A DNA stretch of 64,000 nt from contig NC_134428.1 of assembly GCF_030867145.1 (NCBI RefSeq), positions 24,717,537 to 24,781,536 of the forward strand, in the 5' to 3' direction. Of the stretch, positions 75 through 51,757 are shown in pieces. Under the pieces are notes generated by a model, which worked only from the letters and a program-made list of their open reading frames with translations, was not told where the DNA came from and made no database searches. Made by a program: the position numbers and the translations under genes. This DNA is from Opisthocomus hoazin (Eukaryota > Chordata > Aves > Opisthocomiformes > Opisthocomidae). Within the stretch, counting starts at the first letter, position 1; each line of letters begins with the position of its first letter.

Positions 75-2033
75 GTGGAGCTTCGGAACAGCGACCTTGC
101 CCATCTCCTACTAAGCTGTGCCTTGCATAAAATAGCTCCTAGTTTTCCCAAAATGAAAGCTGGCGACTTCGCTGACTGGTTTCAAGATACTCTACAAAAC
201 GTGTTGCATGCGGTGAATGAGACAATTATTGCACAGATACCTGTCAATATTTCATGTGACTCCTATCAGCAAATGTGAGTCAACCATTCCATACACATTT
301 ATCTTCACTGAGCACTTCTATTTACCTACACTGTACAGGACTTTCTGGCAATATATTCACATATTCCTACAGCAGAGTGTAATGCTCCTGCTGAAAAGCA
401 GAAGTAACCACAGTAAAACACTCAGCATTTTCAGGCTTACATGCAAAATACACTGAAACTCCACAAGTTTTTAATTAGAGCAGCCTTAGCAATTCCATAA
501 CCTTTACATTAAGCAATTGCATCAAGCAGAGAGCTTACTTCTTTAAAAATAAAAATGGCCTTATCACATCGGTAGGCTGTGTTCCATCCGACCTGAAGAT
601 ATTTTGCATTTACTTCTTAAGAACCTCTGTGACAGAGTCTTGCTATAATAAGTAACAATGAAAGCTGATGAAATTTTTGTAATGGAAAAAGTTCTCATTA
701 TTGGAAAATTCTGATTTTATTAAGTTAAAATACTTCCCATGACCATGCTGACATTCCCTCCTGCAGGCTGAAAGGTTTCCAAAAAATCTATGCTGACATC
801 CCCACAGAAAATGTTCCCCATGTTTTTGGATTCTGTAAAACCTTCTTGACATCAAAAGTGAAAACAGGTAATGGCATAAAAAGTTTTAATTTGGGAATGT
901 CCTTTGAAGGCTTTCCAGCACACTCTTGGCTTGAGAAGCAGCAGAAATTCCTGTAGTAATGTCTGAAATGCTCTTAATGACAAGAAAGGGAAAGGAAGCA
1001 TATACTTACATTGTTGATCCAACACTACGGCCATTTCCTCTTACTGATGGGATTCTCACAGCTCCTCCTGCACTTTGGATGGCTCGCCAGGAAGTTTAAC
1101 CACTGCCAGCCACAACACCAGGTTGCCCAACACTGTTAAAAGATAAACCATCCCAAATTCAGACAACAGCACAAAAATATTATTGCTTAATAACGATGAA
1201 GATTCTGATCTCTCTCGTACCAACGTGAATTCAAAGAGTTCTGCTATCTGCAAAGGTTTAATGAGAATTTGCAGTGGTGATTAGGGTTTCTAGTCAGAAC
1301 ACCAGGAGGAGTTTGTAGTCCCCAGCATTCCCAGTGTCATCATTTTTCCAGGTGTTGCATGCGGCAGTGCAACCCAAACTACTCAGAACTGGCTGGAAGT
1401 CAATCTCGGAAATTTTAGCAAACATGCTGAGTATCAGGACTTGGTCACTTGGAACAAACACTTTGTGGGAGTAAGTATTCTTTTAATTTCTTTTTCACTA
1501 GCATGCACTGTGAGAGCATGGCAGTGTTCCACCACCAAACACACTACTTAGCCAGCATTTGCAATGCCTTATGCTCCATGCAGCACGGGAGGGGATGGGT
1601 CATTTTCCTTAAAAAAATATTCTGCCATTAGCATCCAATCCCTACAAGCATTTTTACTGCTTTTCACCAGCTAGTGGCACTCGCAGAGCTACAGTAATAT
1701 TAGCAAATGGGATACTACACATCCTGGTGGAAAAAGGACTTTACAAGTCTTGCGGATATTCCAGACTTGCAGATTTGTCCTGAGTCTTCTTGGAAGCACT
1801 AGCATTTCCAAATCACTTTCACATGCTTAAAAAGGTTGCCATCTGCTTTGTGTCCCTTTCCACAGATGGATGTCTTGGACAAGTTATCCCCAACACAATT
1901 AGCATCCCTGACGCTTTCATCTGATGCCATTAATGAGGAAGAGGAGATGTGTCAGATCCTTGCAAAACTACACAACAAACCATCAGAGGAGATCTATCAG
2001 TATTTAGACCAGTTCAACAGAGAAGCAGCCCAG
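75..2033 (+). CDS. Module 1 of mesothelin-like gene (exons A1-D1)
   Basis: Exons are A1 75-274, B1 767-867, C1 1352-1470 and D1 1866-2033. The A1 acceptor reads TTGCAG|GTGGAG in phase 0, so at least one exon lies upstream of the window. If A1 is full size (209 bp), its start precedes the acceptor seen here; as spliced it is 200 bp. A1 ends NISCDSYQQ and breaks in phase 2. C1 opens GVACGS and has [11 protein letters not shown]1 has [14 protein letters not shown] and ends REAAQ at a CAG|GTAGGG donor. The reading frame stays open for several hundred bases past the D1 donor, but that stretch has no family resemblance and is intron. Confidence 0.87.
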
Positions 2034-5000
2034 GTAGGGGTATCAACACTGCAAGTCCAGCGTAAAGCCATGCCGTGTGGACTTCAGCTCTCCAGATTCT
2101 TAAAGACACCCTCCGAGACGGTTTCTGAGCTTTTGTCTCAAAGGATGAACAACTGCCACAAAGTGTATCACATACAACCTCTCACCGTGGCTGTCTGGCC
2201 CAAAGCATCCAAACGCCAGCGCCCACGACTTTCTGGCTGGCTGACACCCAAGCGCACGCTCCCGGCAGCACTGGGGTGGTACCAAGCAGAACTACTGAAC
2301 CTCACGATCCGTGGCCCTGCTGAGGAAGCTGATCCTCCCAGTCACTTCCCACCCGAGCCATGCACCTGCCTGTGCTTGAGCGGTCACAAGAGGCCAGCGT
2401 GCAGACAGCACGCAGGGCCTTCAGGGAGCCCTGCAGCAGCAGTGTCCCTGCACCATCCCGGGACACCGGCTGAGACTGACAGCTGTCCCTTGGTGCTGGC
2501 TGCTGATACTGCAGGTTCACAGGACATCCCTAAGATGCATCTTCCCTTCTCTGGGACTCCCTCAGAGCCGTTTTTGACAATGCTATTCCCTGTGCCTTTG
2601 CCCTGGGGTCCCTTTTTAATCCTGCCTTCCCACTGATTCTCATGACTTCTCTCATTCAGCTGGCAATAACCACTATTAGGAATAATGATGTGAGGAAAAA
2701 GATGCTCACCCAGTTCACAGGAGACATCGAGGAAGAATTTCCAGCTTTCAGCCCTGCTGAATGGACTCATTTGCTTGCAAGACTCACTCTGCTACTGCCA
2801 AGCGCTGGCAAGGAGGACACCCAACTCTTCTTGTCCCACATTTCTGGTTGTGACAGTTTCAGAGCTCTGTAAGTACACAAGGGAAGCGTCCTCTTTACTG
2901 TGGGCAAAATAAAAAAGGGGATTGTCAGGAAAGAGCAAGGAATTGCCAGGGTAGCACTGTACTAGAGAACATCTGTGCAAGGGATTATCATTTACAGCAA
3001 TGCTCCATCAGGCAAACAAAATAGCCAGAGGCAGATCTTCTTTCCTTTTGAGTAAAATTACGCAAAAGCAAATAAAAACATTTGCTAATTACAATACAAC
3101 ATCAATTATAATTTCTATTAAATAGATTTTAGCTGTTTTTAAAATAGTGCAACTAGGAGCAGTAAAATGAAAAAATACCAGGAAGAGATGAGAGGAGATA
3201 TGCTCTCTAATGAAACAGATTAAGCTAAGAAATAAACTCCGAAGGGCAGCACTGGAAGGAAACTGCACAGACAGTCACGTCTGGGCCACGCAAAGCGGGG
3301 AAGCCCATGATACCAACAACAGTCCCACTCTGACCCAGGAAAGAGGCAGGAAAACAAACAGCAGCATTGGGCCCATAACAGACATTTCCAGTCTGGTCCT
3401 GAACTTCCCTTTTCTGGCACAACCTCGTTCTTCTGCACTGGCATGGCACAGCTCTGCTTTTTGCATCCGTATGGGGCTTCTGTATCTACAGCAAACTGTT
3501 CAGGTCTAGCCCTTGATACTGGCTATTCAGAAAACGCTCTGAAATTAATCTGGCAACACAGGGAGCGAGGCTAATTACCCATTTCATGAGCTGTTCAGGG
3601 GGTTAAGGGATTTACAAAGCACACAAAGAGATCACTAGGGGAGGCTGTACTATCAAGGTCTCTAAAGACTTCTGACAACAGCCTAGACAAACATCTGCAC
3701 AGAGCTAATCCTGCCCTGGGGCACAGATCTCTCAAACCCTTGGCGGTCTGGTCTTTCACATACAGATCACAGCCAGTAAGAAACTAAGCAATGTGCCATT
3801 TCATAACCAGCAAGCTTTCCCTTCCTCTCTTTCATTTCGCTAAACCCTATTCATGCTGGAGTAACATCTCTTCCACCTACAGCATCACCACACGAGCTGG
3901 AAAGCAGTAATTTTGGGCTTGTTCAGCCTGAAGAAGAGAAGGCTGCAAGGGGACCTAATAAATGCTTACAAATATCTGAAGGGTGGGTGTCAGGAGGATG
4001 GGGCCAAGCTCTTTTCAATGGTGCCCAGTGACAGGACAAGGGGCAATGGGCACAAACTGAGGCACAGGAAGTTCCGTCTGAACCTGAGGAAGAACTTCTT
4101 CCCTCTGAGGGTGACGGAGCCCTGGAACAGGCTGCCCAGGGAGGTTGTGGAGTCTCCTTCTCTGGAGATATTCAAGACCCGCCTGGACAAGGTCCTGTGC
4201 AGCCTGCTCTGGGTGACCCTGCTTCGGCAGGGGGGTTGGACTGGGTGACCCACAGAGGTCCCTTCCAACCCCTACTATTCTGTGATTCTGTGATTAAATC
4301 TTCCTCATGTGATATCCCTCCACAGTGTGTCCTCCTTGAGCCAGGCATACACGTCCCTGTCACCCATGAATCAGCAAGGCATCTGTGGCGCTTTGCTGAC
4401 CTTCCTTGAAAGCCAGCACACCGTGACAGGTAACATGAGCCAAAGCCTGAAATGGATCATCAGCATTCTTGTGCATTCGAACAACCACGAAGGAAGCCGA
4501 GTGACGCGCTCTTGTTCTCCTGTGCTGCAGGTTCTGCCTGTGCTTTGGGACAGGAAACAAGTCTGGACTGGCTACAGAAGAACTTGGGGGCATTCGCGGC
4601 CAGCGCTCGTTATGAAGATTTCACCAGATTAATGACAGATTTCAGCGGGGTTAGTTTGTTTTCTGACTCGGACCCGAGAGCTTTGCCTTTGCTCAGGTTT
4701 AGCATCCTGCTCTGCTACAGCTCCTTGCATGCACAAGGCTGAGCACTCTCCTAGATGAACTCATTCAGTAAAAAGACATTGCTCCAGCCAGAGCAGAGCT
4801 CTTCTTCCCAGTCAGGGAATCCAGACAGCTCTGGCTCAGTTCTCCACCTCTTAGCAATATTTTACCTCTCTCTGATCACTTCCCATTGGTTTTGCAGTTC
4901 AATGCAAGGGACAATCTCACCGCTACCCAGCTTGCCCACGTATTTTTTGACCCTGGAGTCCTGGATGATACCAGCATGGTTGAAACCCTCCTGGTCTCCC

Positions 5001-8000
5001 TGGAGGGCAGGCCAGCTCTGGACATCTCTGCCTTTGTGGCTGAATTTGTGGCCACTGCTTCTCAGGTGAGATGCTGACCCCTGCTCTGGATTTGCAGGGA
5101 AACACATCTGCTCATGGGAATGTTGTTTTAGCACACAGCAAACTGCTAGAACAGTGTCTTGCTGACACTACTGGGCTTCAGCCATACGGACCTAGACAAT
5201 ATCTTCCTAAAGCTGATTCCCCTGTCAAATGCTTTATGCCCCCCAGACCCACACATTTGCTACAGCAAGAGCTGGGAAACAGCTTCTGGTCACAGCTGAT
5301 TTGTGTTCTTCCTTGCTTTGCTTTGCAGCAAGACTTACCATCCCTGGCAAACGTGCAAGTTCGAGATGCCATGTTCAGCACAATCTTTCGCAGTCTCCAA
5401 AGCCAGTTCCCTACTTTCAGTGTCTCCCAGTATAAGGACTGGTTCCAGAACAAGCTCAGCTTGTGGCTGGGCAGCATAAATGCCTCTGCCCTTGCAGCTA
5501 TCCCAAGAAACATACCTTGCGGAATATATCAAATTATGTGAGTACTCCACTGCCTGCATTCACTTCAACTTTTCTTTTCACTTCAGCTTTTGCACATGGC
5601 AAGAGAATTCCCGTTGCCCTGCTTGACCCTGTTTTGAGTACAGAAACAAAACTATATTGTGGCTCTTAAAATCCTAGGCTCACCCTTCCTTCCTATTTTT
5701 ACTCCCAGCAGCTCCATTCTCTCACAGCTCGTTTCTGACCAGCACTGTGTCATCTCTATCCAACTACAAATTTGGTATAATGATGCTTGTTTAACAATGC
5801 AAATTCATCTAAAGGAAGAAGCTTGGTTACCATCGAGACAACAGGCCATAGACTGCAGAGCTCTCGTGTGCAATCACATTACAAACTTATGGTGACTTCA
5901 GTCGCCAAAACCAAGGCTGTACTGCTCTAACGAACCTCCCGCTTTCCCTTCTCGCACAGAATGAGCGGCTTAGAAGGCAGCTTTCAACAGATGTCCCCTG
6001 CTAGCCACCAGGATGTTTACAGCTTTGCAAAGAGCTACCTGTCTGCTAAGGCTTCTCAAGGAGGTAGGCTGAAGGCATCCCACGCTCTCCCGCTCCTGTA
6101 ACTTCCCTGTATGTCTGTCAGAAGCAGTAAGATACTCACAAAATCATGGGATGCTGGGCGTATACCCATGAAAAAGAAAATCCAGTTAAATTTGGAATAT
6201 GTCAACTGCTTTTTGCCCTATAGCTTATCACAGGGAGCAGGGGAACAAAAGTGTCTGCAGAAGCAGCTGTGTTTCTCCTGAAGATTAGGACGAGCCCTGG
6301 TGTTAATCATTGTCCCTCACTGCCACGGCAGCTCACGAGCTGAGATCTGGACCATCGCTGGTATTTCTCTGGCTGCCATTGCCACAATATCTGAGAATCT
6401 CCTAAATTTAACATTCTGATCTCTACACCTTTGCTGAAAAGTATGGGAATGCTATTTCCTTACCAGGCATGCTTACACGTCTAGAGGCACCCATTGGGCA
6501 TCAGTCACTCCAGTGCTGCCGGTATCACCGAGGGATTTCAGCACCCAGACATTTTGGGCAACTCTTGTAGCAGCACAGTCATACTACTCCCACAGGAGAA
6601 CCAGGGGACTGAACTGCTGGTTATATCACCCTTGATTTATGCTTTGTTTACAAGGTGGCCCGTGCCTTGAGAACACCAAGGGAAGCCTGGGCTGGCTACA
6701 AACAAACCTGGGTTCTTTCAGCTCCTTGGGTACGTACAGAGACCTGACCAACTTGGATGCAGATTTCACCTTCGTAAGTAACTCTGCGAGACAGAGCCCA
6801 GTGCAAGGCCTGAATCCTGCCTGACAGCCTTTCACAGCTAGCAAATACTTGCTGCTGTAAGGCAAGGACAGTAATTTTAACCTTTGATTTCACAGACTGA
6901 TGCTGTGGCAGTACTCAGCCCCGAGCAACTGGCAGGTTACACACTGGCGAGCGATGTCCTGCGTGACAGGGACAAAGCAGGCAAGGTCTTCAGCTCTCTG
7001 AGCTCTCACACCATTGGAGATTTCATGGATGCCTTCAATGCAGCTGCAAAGCAGGTAGCAACTCTACCTCCTGTTCAAGGGGCTGGAATAAAACAGTTTA
7101 CACATGAAGTGCGTACTGATACAGGTGCTGAGGTTCCAGGTGTAGGAAGAGGCCACAGCTCTTAATTAGTCTGGAAGGGATACAGATTCTCTGCAGTACT
7201 GCCACTCTAACCCTGCACGAATTTCAGTGTTGTCAGAAAGGTTAACAAGGCTCAGGGAAAGAATAAAGGAGTCACTGCGCAGACACTGTATTATGGTCTC
7301 CTTGATCAAACAGTAAGAGCCCTGTATCCTTCCCCACCAACTGCCGTGAGCATCCTCAGCAGATCCCCAGGAGGCTGAGCCACAGACTGGGGACCGGCAG
7401 GACGCCCAGGCAGTTCGTGTACACGCACCTGGAACGGCCAAGGAACAGGCCAGCCCTGGACGCACGGTCACTGCGGCCCCACAGGCAAGTGAGCAGACAA
7501 ACCACCAAAACTGCACACACACAAGCAATTTTACATTTGCAAATCAAATTAATTACATCTTCTTGTGTTAAGATAAGTCTCCAGCAGGGTTATCTCAGAA
7601 CTGCAGCATACTTCCTGGCCCCCCGTTTGACTCCTTTTTACCAGTCCCACCTTCAACATTAACTGCACTGTGCACTTTCAATGATGTCTTTTTCTTTTGG
7701 TTGAAGCGTAATCTCTCTCAGCTTCCTCACGGTGACGTGAGAAGATTCATCCTGGGGCAGATCTTCTGTCACTTAAGCACAGAATTTGAGCTCTTCTCTA
7801 CCGAGGACTACGTTGCCTGGTTTGGAGGAAGGCTTGGCCTCTTCCTGCGCAGCCTCAATGCACAGAACCTTGGCTTCTTACCCAGTGACATGACATGCGA
7901 CTCTCTTGCAGCCATGTAGGTATCCAGTCCACTATCATTTCAGTGACACTCTTCCTACTTCCCTCTTTGCCTGTAAAGCTGGGAGCCCAACCACTGGGTG

Positions 8001-11000
8001 AGGAGAGCAGCTTCCACTATCCCAAACAACCAGTGCCAAACCCAAGATTCTCGTTCAGTAAATACCTTTATGACCTTACTTGGCTGCCACTGCAGTTTCA
8101 CATTTCAGGCTACAAACAGCAGACCCTAGAGACTCTGCTTCACTCCCATACACCTGCAAATTCACATAAAGCTAACCAAAGAGCCTAACCCCCAGAAGCA
8201 GCAGTTCTGGTCTCACTCTGATTGAAGTGTCTGTTCCCTGGTGTCAAGGGAGTAGAGACATGCCCTAAATGCAGCCCCAACACCTCTCCACTCACTGGCA
8301 GAGCGCTCTGCGGGTTCTTCCCAGTGGCTGTGAATTGCCTGGTTGTGGCTGTCTTACCCTGACTATCTGTGTCCTGCAGAGTGAAGATCCTGACCGAACA
8401 CAAAGCCCAGGGCTCCTATGAGAATCCAGAGCACATCTACTCTTTCATAAAGAGAGTTCTCCACTTCCAGCTGCAGAACTCAGGTAACAAAGGTCTGGGC
8501 CTGCTCATCTCCAGGTATTCAGGAACACAGAAAGGTGGAAAGATTCAGCCACCTCATAAAATGTCCTTGATTTCAGGTGACATGCAGACCTGTTCTCTCT
8601 GTAGGAAAGAGTCATTTCAACATTTTAGCAATCTGACAGTTAAGTGCCTAACCAGTGCTAGGCCTTTAGGGTCCCCTGAAGTCAGCAGACAGAGAAGTGT
8701 CTCTACCTTTGGATAAGCTGCTTCCCTGGAGGATAAGTGAGCTGAATCTCCTGCTAATGCCTAATAGAGCCCTCCCTCGCTCCTCAGCCTCCTGCTTAGC
8801 CCTTCAGGTCACAGCGGTCAGAGAAAGGTACCATCCTCCTCTTCGGAGGATTGAAACCTCTTCAGACAGCACAGGGACCTGAGGTGCAAAAACAGAAGCT
8901 GTGTCATGAACGAGACTAGAACATGCAGACCTTGCAGGAATCTGGCAACCCCAGTATGCTCAAAGGCCAGACGACTCCCCCATCCCCTCTCTGACAGCGT
9001 TTGGATCCCGCAGGGGGCTTGCAACATGAACTATACTATACATTTCTCTGACAGTGGGTGCTCAGTGTTACATGTCTCAGCGATCCAATGAAAGAAATGA
9101 CGTATCTTCTGAGCTTTGCTTTTCCTTTCGCAGGCTCAGCCTGCGCACAGGGCACTGCGGCAGACAGAGAATGGCTGCTACACTATTTTGGTTTATTCAC
9201 TGCTTTTGGATCGTACTCAGATTTTGCAACTCTGAAGAGCAACTTCCATGGGGTAAGAGCTAGATATAAAATATCTGGCATTTTATTCTTAGCCATGAAA
9301 CAAGCTGACAGGAACAGAGTTCAACTGGATTAGCTCGTTATTTGTGTTGCTCATTTTCTTCTGTGTACTTCCATTTTTTTCTCATTAAGTTTCTTGTTAA
9401 GTTTTAATGCTAAAATAGTGTCAAAAGCACTGCCTCTAGGAGATAGCCATCTTATCAGGAGAATATAAATTCCATAGGAAGACAAGGATTTCAATGACAA
9501 GCTCCAAACAGCAGTGGCTGATAAGACACAGGAAGAGCAGATATTAAATTACACGTGGTCTGCTGAGAACATTCTCACAAATCACCTGTCTAGCAACAGA
9601 GAACAGCTATTATTAAATTTAGTCCCAGTAAACACCCTGCACTGCTTGTTGTCTGAAACCCTGTCCAGAGAGAAGTTAATGTTCCTTAGATATCAAAGCT
9701 CAGGTGGGCTGAGGGAGATGAGCCAGGGGACAATGCTGTGGCTTGGTCTCCAGGCCTCGTGCTATGCTCTGTCTTCTTCAGCTTGACTCCCTAGATCTTT
9801 TCTCAGCTGAGGCACTGGCCCAGCTGACTGTTCAGAGCAAGACTATCTACAGTCCCTCGGCCATCCAGATGGTCCTGGAGGTAATTGGGAACAAGGAGGA
9901 GCCTCTCCAGTACCTCGCTGCCTTCCTAGAGGACTTCAACACTTTTGGCCTGAAGGTAAGTGGCACAAGTGCCAGTGACAGCCAAGTCCTGGGGAGCAGA
10001 ACAGGTCACAGGTACACTTTCAGACTTCCAACTCAGAGACTCTCACGGCCAGATATAAATCTGGAAGATGAGCCAGAAAGGAGTTCCTTCTGCTCCTGTA
10101 TGATCTTGATCTCAGTCCAGTCCTTACTCTGGCTTAACCTCTGTGCATAGACCAGTGTAAAAAGTTCCTCCTCAGGGGAAGTTTGGGAAGCACACCCACC
10201 ACTCCAAGCTAGAGCCAGGATGTAAACAGCAAGGGGTTCTCTACTGCTCATCCAAGGTAGTCCAATGACTTATGAAAGGTTCTGGACCAGGCCCCTAAAA
10301 CTGTTAACATGCATTATGTGTATGAGCGAGCAAGAGAGACTCTGCTGCTTGCCCTAGTCCTGCTGGGCTGAGGACAAGTTAACAACAGGCCAAGCTGAGA
10401 AGCCTGAGTAAGTCCCAGCCTTGCTTCATACACAGCGTGACCACTCTGCTGACTGCCGTCACAAAGCAGCGGCTATGGGAGTGCAAGGGAAAGGAAATTC
10501 AAGCACCTGCCTTGCTTTGCTGTCCAACTCTGCTGACAAAAGAGAACCTGAACTGCCAAGGTCAACTCCCCAACAAGGCCACAGTCAGGCCATATTTCCA
10601 ACTTTTATTGTTAAACAGGAGAGGAAGGAAGGGGAGGAGAGCAGCAAAGAGGAGAAATTGTGGCTATTTTGCCAATTTTTCCTTCACCGCTTTTCCTGCC
10701 TAGTTTCAATATTCAAGGCTTTCTAAGCTCTGCTCATCACCTGCTTCAATTTCTTCCTCCTTCCTCAGAGCTCCGATTTCCTAGGAAGCACCAAAGTTCA
10801 AGAAACGCTGCTAATGATGTCAGCCGAGATCCTCTTCCCACAAATTGCTGACATGTCCCTGGAAGACACAGCTACGTGGCTGCACAGACTGCGCATTCTG
10901 CTCCCCCGCGTGAACGCGACGGTGCTGGAGCTGCTGCCCCTCACCACGCCGTGCCCATACTACCGAGCTTTGTAAGTGCCTGCCTGCCGGGCTGCGGCCT

Positions 11001-14000
11001 CTTTAGCTCTGTGTGGCTACAAGGCAGCCACTCTCGCATCACTAGTCACTGACCAGGCAAGGGCTGCTTTTCACCTTCTTGTATATCATTGGGTATAACC
11101 CAAATCAGTCAATGACTCTGCTCCAAAGGGGGCATTTTCTTGTAGACAGGTACCAAATAGTAATCCTTATTCTCAAGCACACCATAAGTTATATGGCCCA
11201 GCAGAAATCATCCACGTACTATAGGCTGACTACTAGCACCTGCCACCTTTGGTCTGTCAGCATTAAGAAGTTCCCCTCATCCTACTACACCCATCTCTGG
11301 TGCTTTACGCACATGGAAATCATCTGTTACACACTTTATTCCCCAGCATTGCAGCAATGGATGGAGTCTACCCACTGTTGTCAGCAAGGAAGAAGCACGA
11401 CATCTACGAGTTTCAGAAGGCCTATCTGACAGCCCAGTACACAGACTCAGGTAAGGCGCCTACACATAAGTTCCCAGTAAAGCACTAGTATTTGTATGGA
11501 GCATCTTTCGTACTCCAAACATTGAAGATTTTACACCTAACAATCACCCATCTTCCCAATACTGAGATTTGGTCACTTCTGCTGTTCACTACAACCCTGG
11601 GAAGTTCACGACAACCCTGTGAAAGAGAAAGGGAAATCGCTTCTCCTTCGGAAGCTACAGGGAATACTGGTGTAAGGAGCTATGCTATCGCAGAAGGAAT
11701 AGGATATAGGCAGAGAAACAGGATTTCCATTTGGTGTAACCATTTCCCCAGTCTGGAAGCAAATCAGACAGCAGAAGATCAGACCCTGCACTTGCAATAG
11801 GAAGGAGGTTAGCCATTCCTCTGTCAGCAGATATTTAATCACTCACGTGCAGAATGCCTAGATGCCTCCTTCATTGGACATTGTGGCTTTCAACTCTGGC
11901 TCCATTTTGATTACAGGATCAGCGTGCCAGGATGGAACAACTGGGACCAAAGACTGGTTGCAAAAGAACCTTGGAGAGATCTGTTCAGTAGCTAAACTAA
12001 GTGAACTTCAGACCTTTTACCCAGACATTGTTGGAGTAAGTTTTACTAGTCTGTGCACTGAACAACAGTAAAATTAGCACCAGCTTCCAAGCAAAACAGA
12101 TAGCTTCCTGGGCTTTACATTCATAATAATCAGTAAGGGCAAGATGGAGGTGCTTCCTCACAGTGGCTGCATCTCAAAGCAGGGATCAGCTTGGTCTTAC
12201 ATAGGAGAGATTACCAGATGTGACCCCTGTGCAGCATCAGGGGTTGAACTACGCATTCCAGCCGCTTGCCTCTCTCTTCACAGCCTCTCTTTGATGAAAG
12301 ATGTTAATTGTTATCACTGGCCATCAGAACCAATGCTAAGAGCCTGGAATATGTCTCAAATATAGATGCATATTCCGCTACGAGAGGAACTTCTTTTAAA
12401 TCGTATTTAAAAATCAATTTGGCTTAAAGGTCACAGTAAAATTCCTCATGTGGGTATTGCCTTTCCTAATTCCTCCAGACAATGACTCTTCAAATTACAT
12501 TCTGTCTTCAGAAATACTAGAAATTACTTGCTCAGGTCTACTAAAATGCCAGATACATTCAAGAATTCTGAGTTTAGTCTAATCAGTAGCAACGGGTTGC
12601 ACACCCTGAGGACACAGCGAGTTAATCTTCCACGCTGCCTGTATTATGACACCAAGCTGTAACTACAACACAAATGACGCATGAAGAAAAGATGTGACAA
12701 AGGGCAACAGCAGTAAGACCAACAGGAGCTGAATTCTGCTAGGCTAATATTTGATTGGGATGTATGGGTCTACATGTTATAATATTGTTTCACAGCAAAG
12801 AAAGACATTGCATTAATGAAATAATTCAAGTACAGCTTGAAAATGCAACACTTCTGCTTTCATGTCAAAAAACAGATTTTTCTTTTCATGCGATGTTCTA
12901 AAAAAAAAAACACCTTGCACAGCTGTAAAACATGCCTTAGACAATGTTTTAACTTCAAACACTCTGTAAGCCAGCGCTAGTATTTATTAAAATGCTGATT
13001 TTGTTTAAAGAATTTGTGTGACACTACCTATCCAATCATCAATAAAAGTAATGTTGACCAACCCGCCTGGTATGTTTCAGATTGTTTCAGTCTTATTGAG
13101 GGTACTTCAGCTAAACTGATAAAGTAGGCAGTGGTACAATCTACTAGTTGCTACTGGTTGAACTAAACTAAGAAGTCTGTAATCCCAAAACATGAACCAG
13201 TTTGCCAACTCCTTACAGAGATATTGAGAGCTCACCCCGTTACTGTATACCAGGCAGACACACAGCGCTTTTGTAAGGGGCTTGCATACATAAAGAAAAC
13301 TGCCCATTCTAACACTTAGATTAAATCTTAAGCACCAATATTATCAAAATTCACAACTCCCCTATTAACTTGAAGCCAAAAGATAAATATACTGTCCTAT
13401 GCCAAACACCTTAGCCTACCACATCCACAGCATCTGAGCAACTTCCAGCAGAATCCCGAACAACGCAACTTGTCTGTGCTAACGTTTGCCATCTGCACCA
13501 CAGCAGCTCAATCCAAGATTCCTATTTATTCTGCAGCTGAAGCTCTGGAAGGAGAAACGCTGATGTGCCTGTCTTGCAGACATTCACTCTGCTTGGCAAG
13601 TTTCCTGCCAAATGCTGCCACTTTAAAAATCCTCTATTTTCATCACAGAAAGTGACCTCTCTGTCTTTGAACATATGCCACAGCAAACAAGAAACTTCTT
13701 TCAAAGCCACGGTGAGAAGCTTCTGGTCTATGCACGATGCCTCAAAAAAGCTTGCAAACTGGAGACTCTACCATTGTTCTGATGTAACTTCCTATTCTCT
13801 TACTATCTACCTCATTTTGCAAGGAACAATGCTGTATCAGAACGCATGATCTGAAACCCATCAGGGTTTGGGGAAAGCCTTAATACATCTAACCTCCTCG
13901 GCATGGAGCACTAACTTTTTAGCAGTGACCACTTTGCTCGGAAATACAGTGCTGAAAGTCTCTAGGTGTGAATTTTTCTCAGCAGCTAGAAAAAAAAGCA

Positions 14001-17000
14001 CCTTTCTCCCCTGAGCAAAAGAAACTGTTTTACATGAGAAGAAAGAACACACAGTGATGTTACTACAATGCCACTTTTACAGAATCACATTTTGTAACAA
14101 GGTTGCCTTTTAGCTGGGTAGACAACTGCACACGAACACATTCCGTCTGGCAGTGCCCCACATCTTTACCTTGCTAAAGAAGATACTGAATTTACAGCAG
14201 CATTACACAGCTCAGCTTCCTATTGGTTTTTATTTAAATTCCCAGAGAGCAGACAGCACTGTCTGGGCTGGCACAAGGTTCCAGGGATTCTAACACAAAA
14301 ACCTACCACCTAGTATGACAGGTAGAGAGAGATATAGATTCAGCATACATTGAATTTTACACACAATTAAGCTAATTGTAGCCAGCCTTACATAAAGCCC
14401 TTTTAACCTGGTAGTAATTATTTGGCAGTTTCCTTTAGGGCCTTAAAGCCTGAAGCAGGTAATGTCCTCCAAAGGTTCTCAGCCAAGTCATCTCTGCAAA
14501 GGGATTAGTGTGGAAAAGGCAGCAATAAGAAAATGGTCAAGACAGAGCAGGGAAAAGTGGGAGGAAAAAGGAAATGGAAGTCATGAGGTGGAAGAGAAGC
14601 GGCTATTGCAGATGCATGCTGCACGCAGGAGACAGTGGAAGCTGAAGAGCCAAAAGAATATTCCTTAGCAGATCTCAAGTCAACAAAGGTTAACCAACTA
14701 CAGGTTTTCAGTTTTATCAGATTCTCCTTAAAGCTTAAAAGGTACAGATTATACTTAAAGTAATTGACTAACCAAGCACTTCACAGGCAAGCAACTCCTG
14801 CTGGTATGTAACAGCTCATGTCCAGGGAGATACCTGACATTCTCCCCTGGAAGGTTCTTTACACAAAACTGAAGGGGTTTTCACCCTCACCCTTCTAAAA
14901 GATTTGGCACCAGACAATTCCCACCTCACTGTTCCATAAGAAAACATGGATCTGCCCTGGCATAGCCTACTTTTTGTCTCCTTCTCAAAAAGCACTGCCC
15001 ACAAACATCTGTGGTACCACAGAAACATCCTCTCTCTCTGTTTGGCAGAGGACTTTGCTGTAGAGCCACTCCCCAAGCACAGCCTTGACGTAACAGCAAA
15101 CACGGCCCTTGGACAACTCTTTGACATGTGTTTCTTCTTAGTTTCAAGTTCCTGATCTCGATACCCCAGAAGAGATGGCACAGCTGACTGTTAACTCAAC
15201 ACTGACCAGCCTGGAAGACACGCTCTCGATCATGGCAATACTTGAGTGCGGATCCTATAACGCAGTCGACAGATACATGAGCCAGTTGAACGCATGTGCT
15301 CACCAGGTCAGTCCTAACGGATCCCAGGTATTCTCTGACTCCCATGTCACTGGGGGAAGGTCAATGTCGTAATTAACTGCCTTCCCTGTACAGCTCACAT
15401 TGTGCTCTGAATGTAATGGCAGTTGTCTACATGCAACAGAGCTGCAAGGCAGGGAGGAGCCGTGGTAAACAGCAGACAACTTTATAAGGAGAGATCTCAG
15501 CAAGCACTAGCGACCAAGAAAATAGACCTAAACCCTGGATAGGGACAGACAACTAAAATATTTGACTTTGTTACGATAATGCTGCAGATGTTCCCTTAGT
15601 AGCCTCTTCTGACTTCGATGCTTATCCAGAGCCTCAAGCCATATTGATGCTTTTGCTCATCTTTATACCACAGGTAAATCTGACCTCACTACCCAGCATG
15701 CTGGTTAGAGACACCATACTGAAGACAGTACTACTAAAGCTAAGACCCAAATTCCAAAACTTCTCCAGTGAAAGATGGGCAGCCTGGTTCCAGCAGCAGC
15801 TGCCCTTGTTGCTGTCTGGTATGAACAAAACCTATCTGGGATGGCTGGGGACCAACATCTCTTGTGATTCCTATCAAGCAATGTGAGTTTACCACGACTC
15901 TTAGGGTTGTGACAGCACTGTAGTTAAAAGCTGGCGTTTCAGCTGAAACTCCACATTTGGATTTCTCGAACAGGACCGAGCTCCGACTCCCTCACTGTTC
16001 TGTGTATTAGCTGAAACCAAACACAGAACCACTAGGCAGGAAGTGCACAGAGATCTTCCAGGTTGCTCAATTTGCCTGTCACTGTTGGAAATCTGTGAGC
16101 AAGTCCCCTATATTCTAAAACATTTTTCTGTTCGTATAAATGGAAACATTCATGAGCCTCTTCTGTGAAATCCAACTGAGAGATGTGACAGCCTCAGGCA
16201 CCACCCAGGCCATGCAGCAGGTTGGAAACAACAGGTCAACTTCCTTAAAACTCCAAACAAATGCAGTTCTTTTCTGAAAATGTCCTCTTTTATTTCCCAG
16301 AGTCAAAGGATTCAACAACGCTTATGAGTCCCTTTCACCTTCCAACAAAATCGACATATACAACAGCTACATTAAAACCTACCTGAGCCAGCAATCACGT
16401 TCAACAGGTAACGGCACCAAAGAAGTAAAATAATTCTAAAGCCTAGAGAGTGATAACAGAGTTTGTTTCCAGGCTACAAAATATCAGCCATGGGTTCCTA
16501 CCTTCACTCCGCTGTCCACGTGGCTGGCACCAACTTCACTGAGCAGGAGTACAGTGGGTTCAGACTTGTTTTACAGTCTCCTTGGAGCTGGTCCTGTCTC
16601 TGGGTCCTACCTGCACTGCATGGGGATATTTCCCACAGTTAGATTTGGCTCTTAAATCAAGAGATAATCTAAAACCATGAACACCCACAGGAATGGTGTC
16701 CTAATTCTGTGCCTTTCATTAGCACCATCACCGCTGCCCTGAAAGGCCACAGGTTGTCTTAGTTTGTAACACTGCCTCGGCAACAGACCTGAAGTTTTTT
16801 TCCTCTTTCTAGGGGTTGCCTGTGACATCCAAAGAGGAAAGAGAGATTGGATTGACATAAATCTTGGGAAATTCATTGAACAATCCTCCACACAAGATCT
16901 TGTTCATTTCAATGACAAATTTAAGGTATTGAGCTGAAAGTCTGTACAGACTGATCAGCAATGCCGTGGCTCAGTCTTCGTAACGACGTGTTGTACTGGG

Positions 17001-17454
17001 CTTCAGAGAAATTAAAATATCCCACACAAAGGCCAGATCACAGCCCAAAATGTCATCAAATTTGCCTCCAACTAACCCCTCATGGTCAGTAATACATTCA
17101 TAGGCCTTAATCCAGAAGAAACAAATATAATGCCCGGTAAAATTGCGCACTGCTGCTAGCTCTGCCTTGGAGACAGCACCGTCCCGGCACAAAGCAGGGC
17201 CAGGTTCTCGCACACGCCCCACCTGCACTTTGCCTGGGAACAGCCAGCACGATCCAAGCGTTGCTGTACAGCTAAAAAGTCTCCATTCTGTAACTACTGA
17301 ATGAGCAACTCCATGTAATTTTGTACGTATGTACCTAATTCTTGTGTTATTACTTCCTCTGTGTAGGAGCTAAGTGCTCAGAGCCTGGAAGATTTGCTGG
17401 GACCTAATTCTGGGTTTCACCTTGAAGCAGGATATTCCCAACAGCCATCAGCAG
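75..17454 (+). CDS. Mesothelin-like modular protein, 24 exons in six tandem modules (5' partial)
   Basis: Twenty-four exons with consensus AG/GT borders encode about 1,167 residues without a stop. They repeat a four-exon module six times: A (about 70 residues, ends with a Cys and a Ser/Tyr-rich tail), B (about 35), C (about 40, starts with a Cys and has a WL..NLG.F core) and D (53-58, core L(S/T)xxxLAxLT). Splice phases are the same in every module: D/A phase 0, A/B phase 2, B/C phase 1, C/D phase 0. The leucine-rich helical look, the C-terminal LLGP segment and the position beside CIAO3 (human MSLN and MSLNL flank NARFL) point to the mesothelin/stereocilin/otoancorin family, thought to be helical ARM-like extracellular or GPI-anchored proteins. 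No signal peptide is visible because the 5' end is missing. I am sure of the exons and less sure of the exact orthologue. It could equally be a multi-module relative rather than MSLN or MSLNL itself. Confidence 0.85.
2660..5065 (+). CDS. Module 2 of mesothelin-like gene (exons A2-D2)
   Basis: Exons are A2 2660-2868 (209 bp), B2 4326-4429 (104 bp), C2 4531-4649 (119 bp) and D2 4898-5065 (168 bp), all with clean GT-AG borders. A2 is one of the two divergent A exons: it has [10 protein letters not shown] where others have a WF...L pattern, and ends in Leu, not Met. C2 opens GSACALG and has WLQKNLGAF. The A2-B2 intron (2869-4325) holds a CR1 LINE fragment ending 30 bp before the B2 acceptor. Confidence 0.88.
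3913..4295 (+). mobile_element. CR1 LINE fragment, sense, in the A2-B2 intron
   Basis: Contains the end of CR1 ORF2 ([14 protein letters not shown], then [20 protein letters not shown]) and finishes with CCTTCCAACCCCTACTATTC and two TGTGATTC-type tail units. It is 5' truncated. It ends 30 bp before exon B2 of the mesothelin-like gene. Confidence 0.93.
5329..7054 (+). CDS. Module 3 of mesothelin-like gene (exons A3-D3)
   Basis: Exons are A3 5329-5537 (209 bp), B3 5960-6063 (104 bp), C3 6655-6773 (119 bp) and D3 6896-7054 (159 bp). A3 has [14 protein letters not shown] and the C-terminal Cys (NIPCGIYQ). B3 has [14 protein letters not shown]3 opens GGPCLEN and has [11 protein letters not shown]3 has [11 protein letters not shown] and is the shortest full D exon, three to five residues shorter than its siblings and still in phase. 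Confidence 0.88.
7707..9955 (+). CDS. Module 4 of mesothelin-like gene (exons A4-D4)
   Basis: Exons are A4 7707-7915 (209 bp), B4 8380-8483 (104 bp), C4 9134-9252 (119 bp) and D4 9782-9955 (174 bp). A4 has [18 protein letters not shown] and the C-terminal Cys (MTCDSLAA). B4 has [14 protein letters not shown]4 opens GSACAQG with WLLHYFGLF, a variant of the WLxxNLGxF core. D4 is the longest D exon (58 residues) and has [12 protein letters not shown]. All borders are GT-AG. Confidence 0.88.
10769..15306 (+). CDS. Module 5 of mesothelin-like gene (exons A5-D5)
   Basis: Exons are A5 10769-10971 (203 bp), B5 11347-11450 (104 bp), C5 11917-12035 (119 bp) and D5 15142-15306 (165 bp). A5 is the second divergent A exon ([10 protein letters not shown], ends in a Tyr-Tyr-Arg-Ala-Leu tail), resembling A2. 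B5 has [15 protein letters not shown]5 opens GSACQDG with [10 protein letters not shown]5 has [13 protein letters not shown]. The C5-D5 intron (12036-15141, 3.1 kb) is by far the longest in the gene. I see no further module exon in it. Confidence 0.87.
15674..17454 (+). CDS. Module 6 of mesothelin-like gene (exons A6-C6 plus short final D-type exon)
   Basis: Exons are A6 15674-15882 (209 bp), B6 16301-16407 (107 bp), C6 16813-16925 (113 bp) and D6 17367-17454 (88 bp, ending in phase 1). A6 ends [10 protein letters not shown], almost the same as A1. C6 opens GVACDIQ and has [10 protein letters not shown]6 is not a normal D exon: after [13 protein letters not shown] it diverges, and the LLGP stretch recalls the C-terminal LLGPHVEGL of human mesothelin. 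After 17454 the gene either splices on (donor GTGAGT) or stops at the in-frame TGA at 17460-17462. I could not settle which. Confidence 0.82.
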
Positions 17455-17462
17455 GTGAGTGA

Positions 17463-19080
17463 AAGAGGACTTGGGAGTCACCAGCAAGTTCTCCTTAGTA
17501 CTGACACCCTTTTGTTTAAAATGCAAACAAATTCCTAAAGGCTTACATCTGCACAGCAAAGGTATACAACAAGGTTACTCCTTGTCTGCCAGACAGCAGA
17601 TCCTCTCCCACTGTACAGAAAATAGCAGCTTATCACATGAAAGAAATGACGTGCCAGATTTTGCGGTGGGATCTCCTGGCATACACCCTGCTGTAAGCTC
17701 ACCATCACCGCGCAGAATTCCGCGTACAGGGTCAACTGGGAAGTCACGCTGGGTCACACCGAGCTCGCCGTGAACGAGCGGCAGGGCTCTTGCACACCGT
17801 GTGTTCCCCAGTGCTTTGCACAACCTGACTGTAACCGACTTCGCAGATGACTTTCACCCCTTCCCTTGGGAGCCTACTCCATCAGTAAAACATTTCCAAA
17901 TGGGCTTATGGGAAAGCTATCAGGAGGCAGAATGGTTATTCCAGACCCTCGAACAAATCATTGTCTCCGCGGACAATCTCTGTGGATTCACAACTGATCA
18001 GATGCCTTAATATTTATTTCAGCACCTCCTGTAACTGGACGAGCAACAACATATCTGAAAAACCACACGTTTCAGATTTTTTACTGCATTCTCCCCCTCT
18101 GGCTACTAAACACCGTTCCGTAACATTATATCCTGCCCCTAAATGGTAAGATATTCTAGCACAGCTACACAACACTTCAACCAACACAGGTGCTTGCTTT
18201 CTTCAGAGCTCATCACTTCTTGACAATGATCTAGAGGTGCAGTTGCAGGGTGTTAAAGTCTGCAGAGTCTGGCGCACTTGTTGGCAGAGTATGTTGCCTG
18301 GAGCCCCATCTTCACACCTTAACCAGAGCTTTTGAGACTGCAAGGACAAAACCCAGAAGTGCTTTCAGGGTCAGGGCCTAGATGCTACCAGTTTCTCCTT
18401 GCGTTCTGTCGACAGCTATGCCTGGAAACGACATGCAGCTCTGCTTATTAACAGCACACTGCGCTTAGAACTTTCCAACTAGATACCTCAGGGTACTTCT
18501 ACAGACAGTATAAAGGTTGGGGATTTTTTGTTAAACAAAGCTCCTGTCGGTATGTATTAGGTTGCATTCTGCAAGAGCTCGAATTTGCAAGGTTTTCCTT
18601 GAAACACCACCGACACTGCGACATCTCCAGGCAGGGTCTGCAATCAAGAAGACGCCAAGTTCTCAAGCAGAAAGCACTATAGCCTCCCCAGCCATCTTGA
18701 AAAACTGTTACACCACTTTCTCCGCTAATTCTCATGTAAATAAAAATGCTTTCTTCGAAGAACTACTCATTTCTCACGCTGAGCTTTGAACCACTAATAC
18801 ATAGAACATCAAGCACTTGCATGAATACGGCAAGCGGTTCAGGGAGGATTTACAGCTTTAAAGGCAGGAACATCATCAGCCACCGTGGTGGAAGAGCAGT
18901 CCCAAGAAGGGTGACGGGAATCCAGGCCACCCCACAAGCTCTAAGGCTCCGAGGACTCTCTGCAAGCACAAGCAGCCCAGCACAGGCCTCACCCTGCCCG
19001 TAAGGCCAGGGGCCCTGATACCTCCCTCTCCATAGCGCCTACACCTTACCTCAGCCTAACACACCTTCCACTGCGGCCAA
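17463..19080. other. Intergenic or 3' region between the mesothelin-like gene and CIAO3
   Basis: No exon here can be recognised with confidence. Candidate phase-1 acceptors exist (before 17847, 18189 and 18207), giving short C-terminal tails of about 55, 45 and 5 residues. None has a GPI-signal look or recognisable similarity. An AATAAA at 18739-18744 could be the poly(A) signal of the mesothelin-like gene. Confidence 0.4.
18739..18744 (+). promoter_or_regulatory. Possible poly(A) signal of the mesothelin-like gene
   Basis: A canonical AATAAA about 1.3 kb after the last exon placed with confidence and about 580 bp before the CIAO3 start codon. It is the clearest signal in the interval, but its use is inferred. 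Confidence 0.35.
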
Positions 19081-19771: not shown

Positions 19772-22700
19772 GAAAAAAGCTTAAGCCTGAGCAAGTTTCG
19801 GTGCAGACTGCTCAGCCGCGCAGATGCTGATGCCAGTGCGCAGGAGCGGGTGGCGGAGAGGTGGGAGCGAGCAGCACGGACGGGTCAAGACAAGGGGGAA
19901 TGGCTGTAAACTAAAAGAGGGCAGATTTAGATTAGATATTAGGAAGAAATTCTTCACCAGGAGGGTGGTGAGGCACTGGAACAGGCTGCCCAGAGAAGCT
20001 GTGGCTGCCCCCTCCCTGGCAGGGTTCAAGGCCAGGTTGGATGGGGCTCTGAGCACCCTGGGCTGGTGGGAGATGTCCCTGCTCATGGCAGGGGGTTTGG
20101 AACCAGATGAGCTTTAAGGTCCATTCCAACCCACCCCATTCTATGATTCTAAGACTCTTCCATTCGTAGTCTTCAAGCACTGGCAGAAGTACAGAATGGT
20201 AATCCTGGGTGTATTTGCTGACAAGTACAGCAGAAAATCTCTCCTGAAATGAGATCAGTGGAATGGGGCATAGCAAGCCCCGTTAGCTCTCCTTGCAGTA
20301 CCTGGGTTTCCTGCTGAAGTCTTTCACGTAAATATGCGACCCACTTTCCTGTTTCAAGTCGAGATCATTGTTTGGTTTATTCAGTGAACACAACTGAAGA
20401 ATCATGATGACTTGTTCCTGGTAGTCTCTGAATCTTGCAAAATGTTGTAAAGCTGGAGTAATTTAGGGGGGGAAGAGTGAAGATGTTGGCAGAATAAGGG
20501 TGGTAAAAGGCAAAGAGAATCCTAGCTGTAGAAGTAGGACAAGGAGTCGTAAGTTTCCTAAACAATAAAAATCGCACAAAATGCAAAAACACCCTTGAGA
20601 CTTCATCACAGAACAATACAGAAAACTGGAAGCAGTCCATCTGAGGTCGTCACAGACCTTTCAGCATTAAATGCAACTTCATTGGCACTAGCCACATGTT
20701 GACTGTGGTGACCCCGCCTCCGTCGGTTAAAATTTGCGATGAAGAATGCACGATCATCTGTAAGATTTCAGAGGAGGACTGTGCAGGCGAGCCTCTGTTT
20801 CTTTCAAGGCTCCATAAACACAGCTGCGTTCTTTCAGAAACGACAGCAAAATTGTCCTCTGGTTTTGGTATGATGCTGGAGAAGTGTTCCTTCTGTAAGA
20901 AAGGGGTAAGCAGGTTTTGCTTTTGCGTTTTCCCTTGGTGGCTGTAGACGCTGTAAGTAAATCCAGCGTAGCTTAAGGGAGAGCAAGCGGCATTCACTCT
21001 GGAGCTCGTGCTTGGGTTTGGCAACGTAGTTTCTATTAAATGTAGCTCTTCCACACTTCATTGCTCCTCTCCTCACTTTCGGGCTTCGTTTCTCTTCCAG
21101 GAATGTATTAAACCTGTAAAAGTGGAAAAAAAGCCTGGAAAAGCAGCAGCTAAGATCAGGATTGAAGCAGATGGAAGCTATTTCCAGATCAATCAGGTAT
21201 GTGTGATTTTTCCTTCATTATTGTGTAAAATATCCAGAAAACACGAGTGTACTGTTATGTATTTGAATAGACTGCAGTTATTTAATGCCTCAGAGAGGAC
21301 CAAGATGTTACTAAAAGCATCGCTATCGCTGTCAGCATTCTCGTATCTTTCTTCCAAAGTCCAAATTTTTAATTACCTGGTTTTATGAGCAGTAATTCCA
21401 ATTTTGTGTCAATCTTTTATGGTCTGAAACACTGACATTAGCTAGTGATGATTTGCAGTATAAGGGCAAATGAGCTGAGAAGTCTATTTTGCCATCAATA
21501 CTTAAGTATTAGCAATTCCTAGATTATTTGCGACAATGTCTTTTATTGCATTCTGTCGTACAGCAGAATGCTCACTCACAAAGAGATTCAATTAGATATT
21601 TTTAAATTTTGCTCTGATTTTTTTTTAACTAATATTTCAAATTACTCGTTAAATAGCGTGCAGAATTCATAAGCCTCCTGCTTCCAAACCTAACGTTGAG
21701 TTTTGGAGAATGATTTTCCTGTTTACACAGGAAAGGTTAGTATTTCTTAGTTAACCAAGCTAGGAATTAATCTAGAAACATTACTTTCAGCTTTAAGCAG
21801 ATGATGACCCTTTTGACTGAAAAAGAGGGATACAACACTTCTGAAGGAGTCTGGTTTCTTATTTTAACATTTTAATTTAGTAGTACCTAATTGCTCGGTC
21901 TGTTTCTGACTTTACTGAGGAGTTAAGTTTAAGGGGAGAGTCTCATGGGAAAACTGACTTATTCAGGTCAAATATTATGAAAAATATTTCCTTCCAGTGG
22001 CAAGCCACACGCCATCTTTGATATGCTGCCATACAGTTCTCCCATCAGTGTGCACGTAGGTTTTGCACACAGGAAGACTGCAGAACCCTCAGTGTCAATT
22101 AAAAAAGTTAGTGAGCTTGTAGTCTGGTTGCACAGTCTGTTTAAAAGAAGTGATGTTCAAGTTCCTGTGAAGAAACCGCTCCAGTGCTGCTCAATAACGT
22201 GAGCAGCATCTGTCAGAGGTGAGAAAGCTGGCGTGCTTTCTCCAGGGTGACGTTCAGTGCACTCTGGAGATCGGTGCTTAAAGGCTTAGGATCTCTGTGG
22301 TCTACAGTTGGGTGGCTGAAACAGCAGCTGCAATCTGTAGTATGTTAGCCATGCTAACCCAGTCTTCAGCCACCCACAAGGTGAAAACCAAGCAAGATGG
22401 ACCCTATTTGCTTCTGGGATAGTATAATTTTGGTGTTTTGGACCAGCCCACCGGATAGCACAAATAATTGTGGCCTAAACAACTGGTTTTTATTTGATCA
22501 AAGTTATGTTCTTGGTCTTGCTAAAATTTCGCTGAAGTTCCTCAGCATATTTCATCTGTGTGCCAAAGAATCCTATTAAAAGGAGCAAACCTTAAAGATA
22601 CTTGTCTTCCTCCTCATCTTACTAAAATAAAAAGGTACTTTTTCTTAATGATAAACCAAGAGCATAAAAGGGACAACATCCTTGTTACCAAATATAGTAA

Positions 22701-35043: not shown

Positions 35044-38000
35044 TCACTTCTTCTCGAGGAAGGGGCTGAAAAGTCCCCAGTCGAAGGCCAGCATGGCCGG
35101 GGGATTGGGCCGCTCCTTGGGCTTCTTGAAGTTGTCCTTCTCGGTGCGGAGGGTCCTCAGCACCTCCACCGGGTCCGTCTTGCCCGTGAACTTCTGCAAG
35201 GGCTCCTCCCTGTAAGGAGATCGGCTCTGCTGTCACCGCGGGGAGCGGGATGGGGACCCCCCTCCCCGCTGGGACGGACAACGGGGGGGTCGCGTCCCCG
35301 TGCTGGGTGGCTGCTGGGGCTCACGGGGCTGCGTTGCAGGAACCCCCAGCTGGGGGGTGCAGGACCCCGCGTCCGGGCACCCTCCCCTCCCTCAGGGCTT
35401 GGATTTCCCACCGGCTGGCGAAGCCACTGGGAGAAGGGGTGACGCTGGGGGGAAACGGGGAGCAGAGCCTGGGGGCAGGACCACCCACCGGGGCCCGTCG
35501 CACCCCCCCGGTGCCGGCGCCGCTTACGTGACCCGCAGGAAGGGGTTGTAGAGGAACTCCTCCTGCAGCGTGGAGGGCACCGTGGGCAAGTCCTCGTCAT
35601 CCCGCTGCTGCCGAGGAACCAGAGACATCCAACAGCCCGCCGGCACCCAGCACCCCCTCCACCCCCCCCGGCAGGGGCACGGCCACTCACTTTGGCCCAC
35701 GCCAGTTTCTTCTTCACCACTTCATTCTCCGGTTCCACTTTCAAGGCGAACTTGAGGTTTCGGACGGTGCACTCGTGGCCACAGAACACCTTCTGCAGCG
35801 CCAGCGGGAAGCACCCGGCGTCACCCACGCACCCGGCGCCGGGTCCAGCCCACCCCGGTCCCACTGCAGCCCCAGCCCCGGGCACGGCGGCAGCCTTGAG
35901 CCCTCCCCCACCCCGATTCTGGGGTCCGTCCCGGGGGTGACACCAGGCACTCACCGTCTCCTTCGGCAGAGTCCCCAGGGTTTGGGTGAGGTTGGTGTAC
36001 ATCTGCTCCGCCGTCCCCTCGAAGAACTTCCCGCAGCCTCCCACGAACAGCGTGTCGCCTGCGGGGACAGGGGGCTGGGCACGGAGGGGACCCTGGCCCC
36101 GCTCCCGGGGACCGCGTGGGTGCTGGGTGGGAGCCCCCACGCACCGGATTCGCCCCGTGAGCGCTGGGGGGGGCGGGCAGGCAGCATGACCCCCCCATCC
36201 CCGGTACCCCCCAGTGCACGTCGTCAGGGTGGGGGTACCTGAGAACAGAGCCGGAGCGTCCGGGGAGCCGTCCTCCCACATGAAGTAGCACATGTGGCCC
36301 GAGGTGTGGCACGGGGTGAAGAGGCACCGCACCCGGATGGCCCCAAACTGCGGCAGGGGGAGAGGGTCAGGACCCCGCCGGGGCAGCCAGACCCCCCCAG
36401 ACCCCTCGGCATCGCCTGCCTGGGGCCCAGCGGGTTGCAGGCACAGCGGGGGTTCGGATCAGCCCTGGGTTGCAAGCGACTGCTGCGATGGCGTTCAGCA
36501 GCAGGGTCCCCCTCAGCTGGGTCCCCCAGCGCAATCCCAGTGGGATGGGATGGGATGGGATGGGATGGGGATGGGACGGGGATGGGGACAGGATAGGGAT
36601 GGGACGGGGATGGGATGGGGATGGGGACGAGGATGGGGACGGGGATGGGGATGGGACGGGGATGGGACAGGGATGGGGATGGGGACGGGGATGGGGACGG
36701 GGATGGGGATGGGACGGGGATGGGGACAGGATAGGGATGGGACGGGGATGGGATGGGGATGGGGACGAGGATGGGGACGGGGATGGGGATGGGACGGGGA
36801 TGGGACAGGGATGGGGATGGGGACGGGGATGGGGACGGGGATGGGGATGGGACGGGGATGGGACGGGGATGGGGATGGGGACGGGGATGGGACGGGGATG
36901 GGACGGGGATGGGAATGGGGACGGGGATGGGACGGGGATGGGACGGGGATGGGACGGGGATGGGACGGGGATGGGGATGGGGACGGGGATGGGGACGGGG
37001 ATGGGGATGGGACGGGGATGGGACGGGGATGGGGACGGGGATGGGACGGGGATGGGGATGGGACGGGGATGGGGATGGGGACGGGGATGGGGACGGGGAT
37101 GGGGACGGGGATGGGGACGGGGATGGGACAGGGACGGGAATGGGACAGGGATGGGGATGGAAAGGGGATGGGGATGGGGATGGGGACGGGGATGGGGACC
37201 GGACGGGGATGGGACAGGGACGGGAATGGGACAGGGACGGGAATGGGACAGGGGATGGGGATGGGACGGGACGGGGATGGGAAGGGGACGGGAAGGGGAC
37301 GGGGATGGGACAGGGATGGGACGGGGATGGGGTTTCTCCTCCAACCCAGCGTTCCCACATCCCAGGGCACAGGGAGCCCGAGCACGGCTCCAGGCAGCCA
37401 CCAACCCCGTCAGGTCCCGGCTCGGTGCCGCACCGCTGGGCACCGCACCATCACCCGGCTCCGCTCCCCGCCATGGCCCCGCACCGTGCCAGCCGCCCCG
37501 CGGGGCACGACCCGTTCGGCCACGCACCGTCAGCTCCTGGCCGTGGGTCACCTTGTGCGTCAGGGCCCCGATGCGCTCGTCGGCGCCGTACACGCGCAGC
37601 CCGGGGCACAGCCGCGCCAGCTCCTCGTTGCCCCTCGCGTGGTCCCTGCGCCAGCAGAGGAAGGAATGGGCGCTCGGTCCCGCACCGGGCACGGCCACCC
37701 CCGGCCCCCCGCTCGCGCCGGTGCCCGTACCAGTGGTGGTGGGTGGTGAGGATGGCCCGGAGCACCACGTCCTCCTTCCGGATGATTTCCAGCAACTGAA
37801 ACGGCCGCAGAGCAGAAGGAAGTGAGGTGACGACGCGCACCCGCTGCCACCGCGCCCAGCGCGGGACGTGTGTCCCGTACGGCTCCGCGGTGAGAGGCCC
37901 GCAGCAGCGCAGGGCTGAACCCGAGGAAGAACTTCTTCCCTCTGAGGGTGCCGGAGCCCTGGCCCAGGCTGCCCAGGGAGGCTGTGGAGTCTCCTTCTCT

Positions 38001-40654: not shown

Positions 40655-51757
<11,103 letters not shown>

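Follow-up and report, generated by a model that had tools for sequence, protein, structure and literature searches.

Mesothelin is a major target in cancer, and both its normal role and its origin are unclear. The protein is a nine-layered solenoid. A disulphide, C442-C468, has been reported within it (PMC10035497). For otoancorin and stereocilin, a role in attaching cells of the inner ear to the tectorial membrane has been suggested, and the members of the mesothelin family have been proposed as glycan binders (PMC2628672).

We examined a window of 64,000 nucleotides from the hoatzin, Opisthocomus hoazin (contig NC_134428.1, positions 24,717,537 to 24,781,536 of the forward strand), in which a preliminary description had noted a mesothelin-like gene built of serially repeated exons. 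This gene, here called the giant, is a neighbour of MSLN and MSLNL and encodes thirteen copies of a four-exon module. The explanation that we favour, and to which we give as a whole a probability of about 0.58, is that the locus is one gene, related to mesothelin, whose product would be an all-helical, ARM/HEAT-like adhesive rod held at the cell surface by a glycosylphosphatidylinositol (GPI) anchor.

A gene of thirteen modules

The gene model comprises 58 coding exons for 2,692 residues; spliced, they read in one frame up to the only stop, at the end, and they carry AG/GT at every internal exon edge. It starts about 22 kb to the left of the window and ends at window position 18123, and the exons inside the window are those of the last six of the thirteen modules. 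The window exons were placed by splice consensus and their phases were computed afterwards, which gave 0-2 for the A exons, 2-1 for the B exons, 1-0 for the C exons and 0-0 for the D exons, with 0-1 for the last D exon (D6). The preliminary description had reported 24 serial exons forming a repeated A-B-C-D set, with modules of about 200 residues and more than 1,160 residues visible. All 24 exons were recovered, bordered by AG/GT from A1 (75-274) to D6 (17367-17454), and when spliced they form an open frame of 1,164 residues, divided into modules of 196, 200, 197, 202, 197 and 172 residues. Under a rough Markov null the probability that all 24 exons are stop-free is about 10^-21, a flattering figure given that the exons were chosen for openness. 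The proposed six-fold repeat holds for five full modules and must be amended for the sixth, which is capped by a short (29 residues), diverged D exon. Similarly, the array is present at 75-17454 as described and extends further than was thought: the end of the gene lies beyond it, and seven more modules and the 5' end are located outside the window.

In order to follow the array upstream, we used profiles built from the six window modules. Across 154.5 kb of this chromosome the whole-module profile had 45 matches at E<0.5. All of them are on the + strand inside the giant gene, 23 in the window and 22 further upstream. Single-exon profiles produced three strays elsewhere in the 154.5 kb, with E values of 0.085, 0.19 and 0.47, and the best stray match on profile iteration reached 0.015. 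Upstream, each exon border was required to fall in the expected phase class and was chosen on splice consensus and profile score, so that the regularity of phases in that part is partly built in. Some upstream exons are weak (U5B 1.0 bits, U7B 3.8, U5C 8.9, U2B 9.9, U1B 11.5, U3B 13.1), and several have alternative ends that score nearly as well.

The two ends of the gene have distinct features. The 5' end was identified by reading the sequence, with small exons accepted on fitting phases: a signal-peptide-like exon (genome 24696923-24696980, + strand) is separated from the module array by four small exons and one D-like exon, with a D-profile score of only 2.5 bits, and a TATA-like box (TATAAAA) is found upstream of the gene at genome position 24695592. 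At the 3' end, the terminal coding exon (18023-18123, + strand, phase 1) encodes a GPI-signal-like hydrophobic tail and the stop. It is the sole terminal exon between 17454 and 19300 to pass the hydropathy filter, with two nested acceptors, and a candidate poly(A) signal, AATAAA, follows at 18739-18744 on the + strand. We also considered that D6 might run through its donor to an in-frame stop a short way beyond, and preferred the exon at 18023, which fits in phase 1 and carries the hydrophobic tail.

The array appears to be one transcription unit. We considered whether a row of neighbouring genes, each with only one or a few modules, had been misread as one. All module borders are in phase 0, and separate readings would likewise stay in frame. 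However, the gaps from a D exon to the next A exon range from 0 to 1.9 kb across the gene and therefore leave little room for separate genes. At one border there is no intron at all, the D exon of module 1 and the A exon of module 2 forming a single exon (L008:4752-5116). Moreover, a signal-peptide-like exon precedes the array and a hydrophobic tail follows it, although internal starts and ends were not systematically searched for. We regard a row of separate genes as very unlikely. A decayed pseudogene array is more improbable still: we saw no point in its support, and 2,692 codons without an internal stop, together with AG/GT at all internal exon edges, speak against it. No second locus was found: when the 1,164-residue query was run against the 1.48-Gb genome, in a search that scores best candidates only, the 31 matches at E<=1 all lay in the giant locus.

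The window exons all lie on the + strand. The eighth of the thirteen modules, which is the first in the window, consists of A1 (75-274, phase 0-2), B1 (767-867, phase 2-1), C1 (1352-1470, phase 1-0) and D1 (1866-2033, phase 0-0). It is followed by A2 (2660-2868), B2 (4326-4429), C2 (4531-4649) and D2 (4898-5065), by A3 (5329-5537), B3 (5960-6063), C3 (6655-6773) and D3 (6896-7054), and by A4 (7707-7915), B4 (8380-8483), C4 (9134-9252) and D4 (9782-9955). The fifth window module is formed by A5 (10769-10971), B5 (11347-11450), C5 (11917-12035) and, after an intron of 3.1 kb, D5 (15142-15306), and the last by A6 (15674-15882), B6 (16301-16407), C6 (16813-16925) and D6 (phase 0-1), which bears the mesothelin last-unit signature at its start. 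The intron between A2 and B2 holds a presumably CR1-like element at 3900-4290, whose segment 4087-4142 is 80% identical to 19941-19996; repeats resembling avian CR1 fit the genome of a bird.

Kinship with mesothelin

Two lines of evidence connect the giant with mesothelin. First, the five successive 3' intron phases of bird MSLN are 0, 2, 1, 0 and 1, which are the phases found before A6, B6, C6, D6 and the terminal exon of the giant. Shared gene structure, a criterion for the mesothelin superfamily, is thus seen in the 3' intron phases, and the chance of five phases agreeing is about 1/200 on general vertebrate phase frequencies. The fifth MSLN phase depends on a donor picked among several and on a terminal exon of phase 1, chosen as the best of ten candidates, whose tail is strongly hydrophobic; the candidates came from about 3.8 kb searched with looser filters, a first search of 1.1 kb having found none. 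MSLNL, in which exon C' was not resolved, was left out of the phase comparison.

Second, we took the opening 14 residues of the corresponding exon from MSLN of bird and human and from bird MSLNL and scored them along the giant. The start of D6 (offset 0) ranks first among 2,679 14-mers for this last-unit signature, with a score of 27.0 against 13.7 for the runner-up, and the score was reached by none of 53,580 shuffled 14-mers. Twelve other D exons were scored, the fused one being excluded. Five of the twelve fall in the top 13, at offset 2 or 5, when the best of 11 offsets is taken; at offset 0 all twelve score negative.

Several points limit the case for this kinship. The signature was picked after the likeness had been noticed, and its rank has to be read accordingly. 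PF06060 has no match above its curated cut-off in two pieces of the protein (1,901 of 2,692 residues) or in the 13 modules; scans of the modules against Pfam, NCBIfam and PDB returned chance-level names only, where the lack of a match in NCBIfam, a bacterial and archaeal library, says little. With HHalign, the module profile showed no significant match to MSLN-family profiles of two and three sequences. When PF06060 was searched against the genome at E<=10, all 12 matches lay in the MSLN/MSLNL stretch of contig C15 and no giant exon was among them; stereocilin and otoancorin, which were hoped for, did not turn up either. Exon-wise alignment to MSLN was weak relative to shuffles, with cross-exon controls about as high, and is not used as support.

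The modules could also be helical units unrelated to mesothelin that became alike by convergence, and the lack of support for kinship from Pfam, PDB and HHalign is what would be expected in that case. Convergence would have to account, however, for a series of phases matching that of MSLN, for a location in the mesothelin neighbourhood and for a D6 signature that sits exactly at the start of the matching exon, and we consider it unlikely. A common ancestor of the giant and MSLN is fairly well supported by the phases and the one exon signature. The term mesothelin-like in the preliminary description is borne out to that extent, and does not extend to a significant Pfam or HHalign match; we describe the giant as a distant mesothelin relative by gene structure, not classed under Pfam Mesothelin.

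Neighbourhood and age of the array

The genes at this locus are ordered RPUSD1, MSLNL, MSLN, giant, CIAO3. MSLN is on the - strand at about 24.662-24.670 Mb and MSLNL on the + strand at about 24.653-24.659 Mb; their joined pieces match PF06060 at 1.2e-106 and 1.9e-29, respectively. We take a PF00849 match at 24.6447 Mb to be RPUSD1; the genome has four such matches. The exons that begin at window position 19318 carry PF02906 (8.8e-16), as expected for CIAO3, and the earlier placement of the giant beside this gene was correct. In the human region 16p13.3, the order is presumably the same (RPUSD1, MSLNL, MSLN, CIAO3), with no giant between CIAO3 and MSLN. The signature exon of MSLNL (L012:1-1628; genome C15:24656939-24658627, + strand) has a frame open for 563 codons and continues into a mucin-like extension rich in Pro, Thr and Ser, with a 96-bp tandem repeat in 4.1 copies.

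The preliminary description had put the giant where mammals have MSLN and MSLNL, and had offered two histories for it: a large multi-module ancestor that mammals shortened, or an expansion in the bird lineage. The reading that it takes their place is not supported, as pieces of both occur as separate genes in this genome, which makes the giant a third gene. By the same token, mammals cannot simply have shortened the giant into MSLN. A long gene that was the ancestor and was cut down by mammals into MSLN and MSLNL would agree with the intron phases and last-unit signature that the last module of the giant has in common with MSLN; but with separate MSLN and MSLNL genes beside the giant, short and long forms coexist in this lineage, and we give such a history little credence.

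The divergence of the modules bears on the second history, in which the final four exons of a short mesothelin gene were recently duplicated in tandem and so lengthened it. The phase pattern of a module does equal that of the last four exons of MSLN, and the two genes are neighbours. However, all 78 pairs of the 13 modules are only 16-31% identical, while bird and human MSLN are 38% identical, a comparison that presupposes similar rates. The module tree is star-like, with none of its 10 inner branches well supported in a bootstrap that had not settled and with a median end branch of 1.45 changes per site; the best pair, M2-U2 (support 91/83), sits on long branches. Divergence of this extent and an unresolved, star-like tree disfavour a recent bird expansion, the thirteen modules being about equally diverged and beyond the difference between bird and human MSLN, and we judge it improbable. 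If rates were similar, the array predates the split between birds and mammals. Going further, it is possible, although we put this forward only tentatively, that the entire mesothelin superfamily is built from this four-exon unit of 200 residues, and that the giant is an old and little-changed array from before the amniote split that was lost in mammals. Were that so, mammals would have kept MSLN and MSLNL and would have no counterpart of a cell-surface tether tens of nanometres long.

Beyond the giant, the window includes a long GC-rich simple-repeat stretch at 36224-37825, in which several frames are open on both strands and which is probably a minisatellite, and a second repeat stretch at 42432-43074 with a repeated peptide reading on the + strand. 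Pieces on the - strand near 36-38 kb are, we presume, HAGH-like. An open reading frame is present at 50484-52652, and we take its C-terminal part to be FAHD1-like.

Predicted protein and comparison with known systems

According to the mechanism that we propose, the giant would be a secreted protein of about 2,690 residues that begins with a signal peptide, a short cysteine-containing N-terminal stretch and the product of a D-like exon, continues with the thirteen modules and finishes in a GPI-signal-like tail. The most hydrophobic 15-residue window is at the N-terminus (hydropathy 2.63), and the C-terminal tail comes next at 1.61. Internal stretches of the same length reach 1.56, which tells against reading the tail as special; because they nearly match it, we can only infer GPI anchoring. 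The giant contains 25 N-glycosylation sequons.

The modules would share an ancestor with the mesothelin unit whose four exons directly precede the terminal one. They are predicted to be mostly helical: AlphaFold2 models of the A-exon and D-exon sets contain only helices, at moderate confidence (predicted local distance difference test, pLDDT, 70 and 68), with four helices at a mean pLDDT of 70 for A3 modelled with the A-exon set, and a Foldseek search with the exon A model gave no match. In 11 of the 13 modules the A-exon cysteine occurs together with the C-exon cysteine, and the other two (U5 and U6) lack both, a co-occurrence that by hand calculation has a chance of 1 in 78. This points to one A-C disulphide per module, by which most of the modules would probably be locked. 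The pair is apparently distinct from C442-C468 of mesothelin; by eye, the A-exon cysteine may match the second of these, in an alignment that is not significant. The modules are predicted to stack into a long ARM/HEAT-like solenoid projecting from the cell surface, which at about 32 residues per layer would have some 80 layers and a length of tens of nanometres. Such a rod may serve to hold a glycoprotein gel or matrix by adhesion to the epithelial or mesothelial surface beneath it, and by analogy with otoancorin, stereocilin and mesothelin, a long surface tether is the most likely function.

We recognised no published description or name of the giant in the open-licence literature, which does not show that the gene is undescribed. 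Proteins called mesothelin or MSLNL appear in studies of seminal foam in quail and of the eggshells of ostrich and zebra finch, and the giant may or may not be among them. A long, repeat-built neighbour in which the family's exon unit is still visible would account for the way the mesothelin family is assembled and would supply an internal repeat for reading its structures. It would also offer a natural long-range adhesion rod and show the mammalian mesothelin set to be a reduced one.

MSLN is one of the described proteins that resemble the giant most. Bird MSLN has the same five successive 3' intron phases, and both the bird and human proteins carry the signature L-[ST]-x3-[VL]-x2-LLG at the start of the last unit, as the giant does; MSLN also has a hydrophobic C-terminal tail exon and a position next door in the same genome. 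It differs in having one A-D set at its 3' end, where the giant has thirteen modules, in an A exon of 134 nt compared with about 209 nt, and in pieces that match PF06060, whereas the giant has no Pfam match; the cysteine pair of the giant is probably also a different one. MSLNL, likewise a neighbour, carries the family signature (KLSVTDVKNLLGEN), but unlike the giant it is short, and its signature exon leads into the Pro/Thr/Ser stretch with its tandem repeat and not into repeated modules. Stereocilin (1,775 residues) and otoancorin (1,153 residues) resemble the giant (2,692 residues) in being long surface proteins, in their case of the inner ear, with a predicted ARM-type superhelix; their lengths and features are given here as published (PMC2628672).
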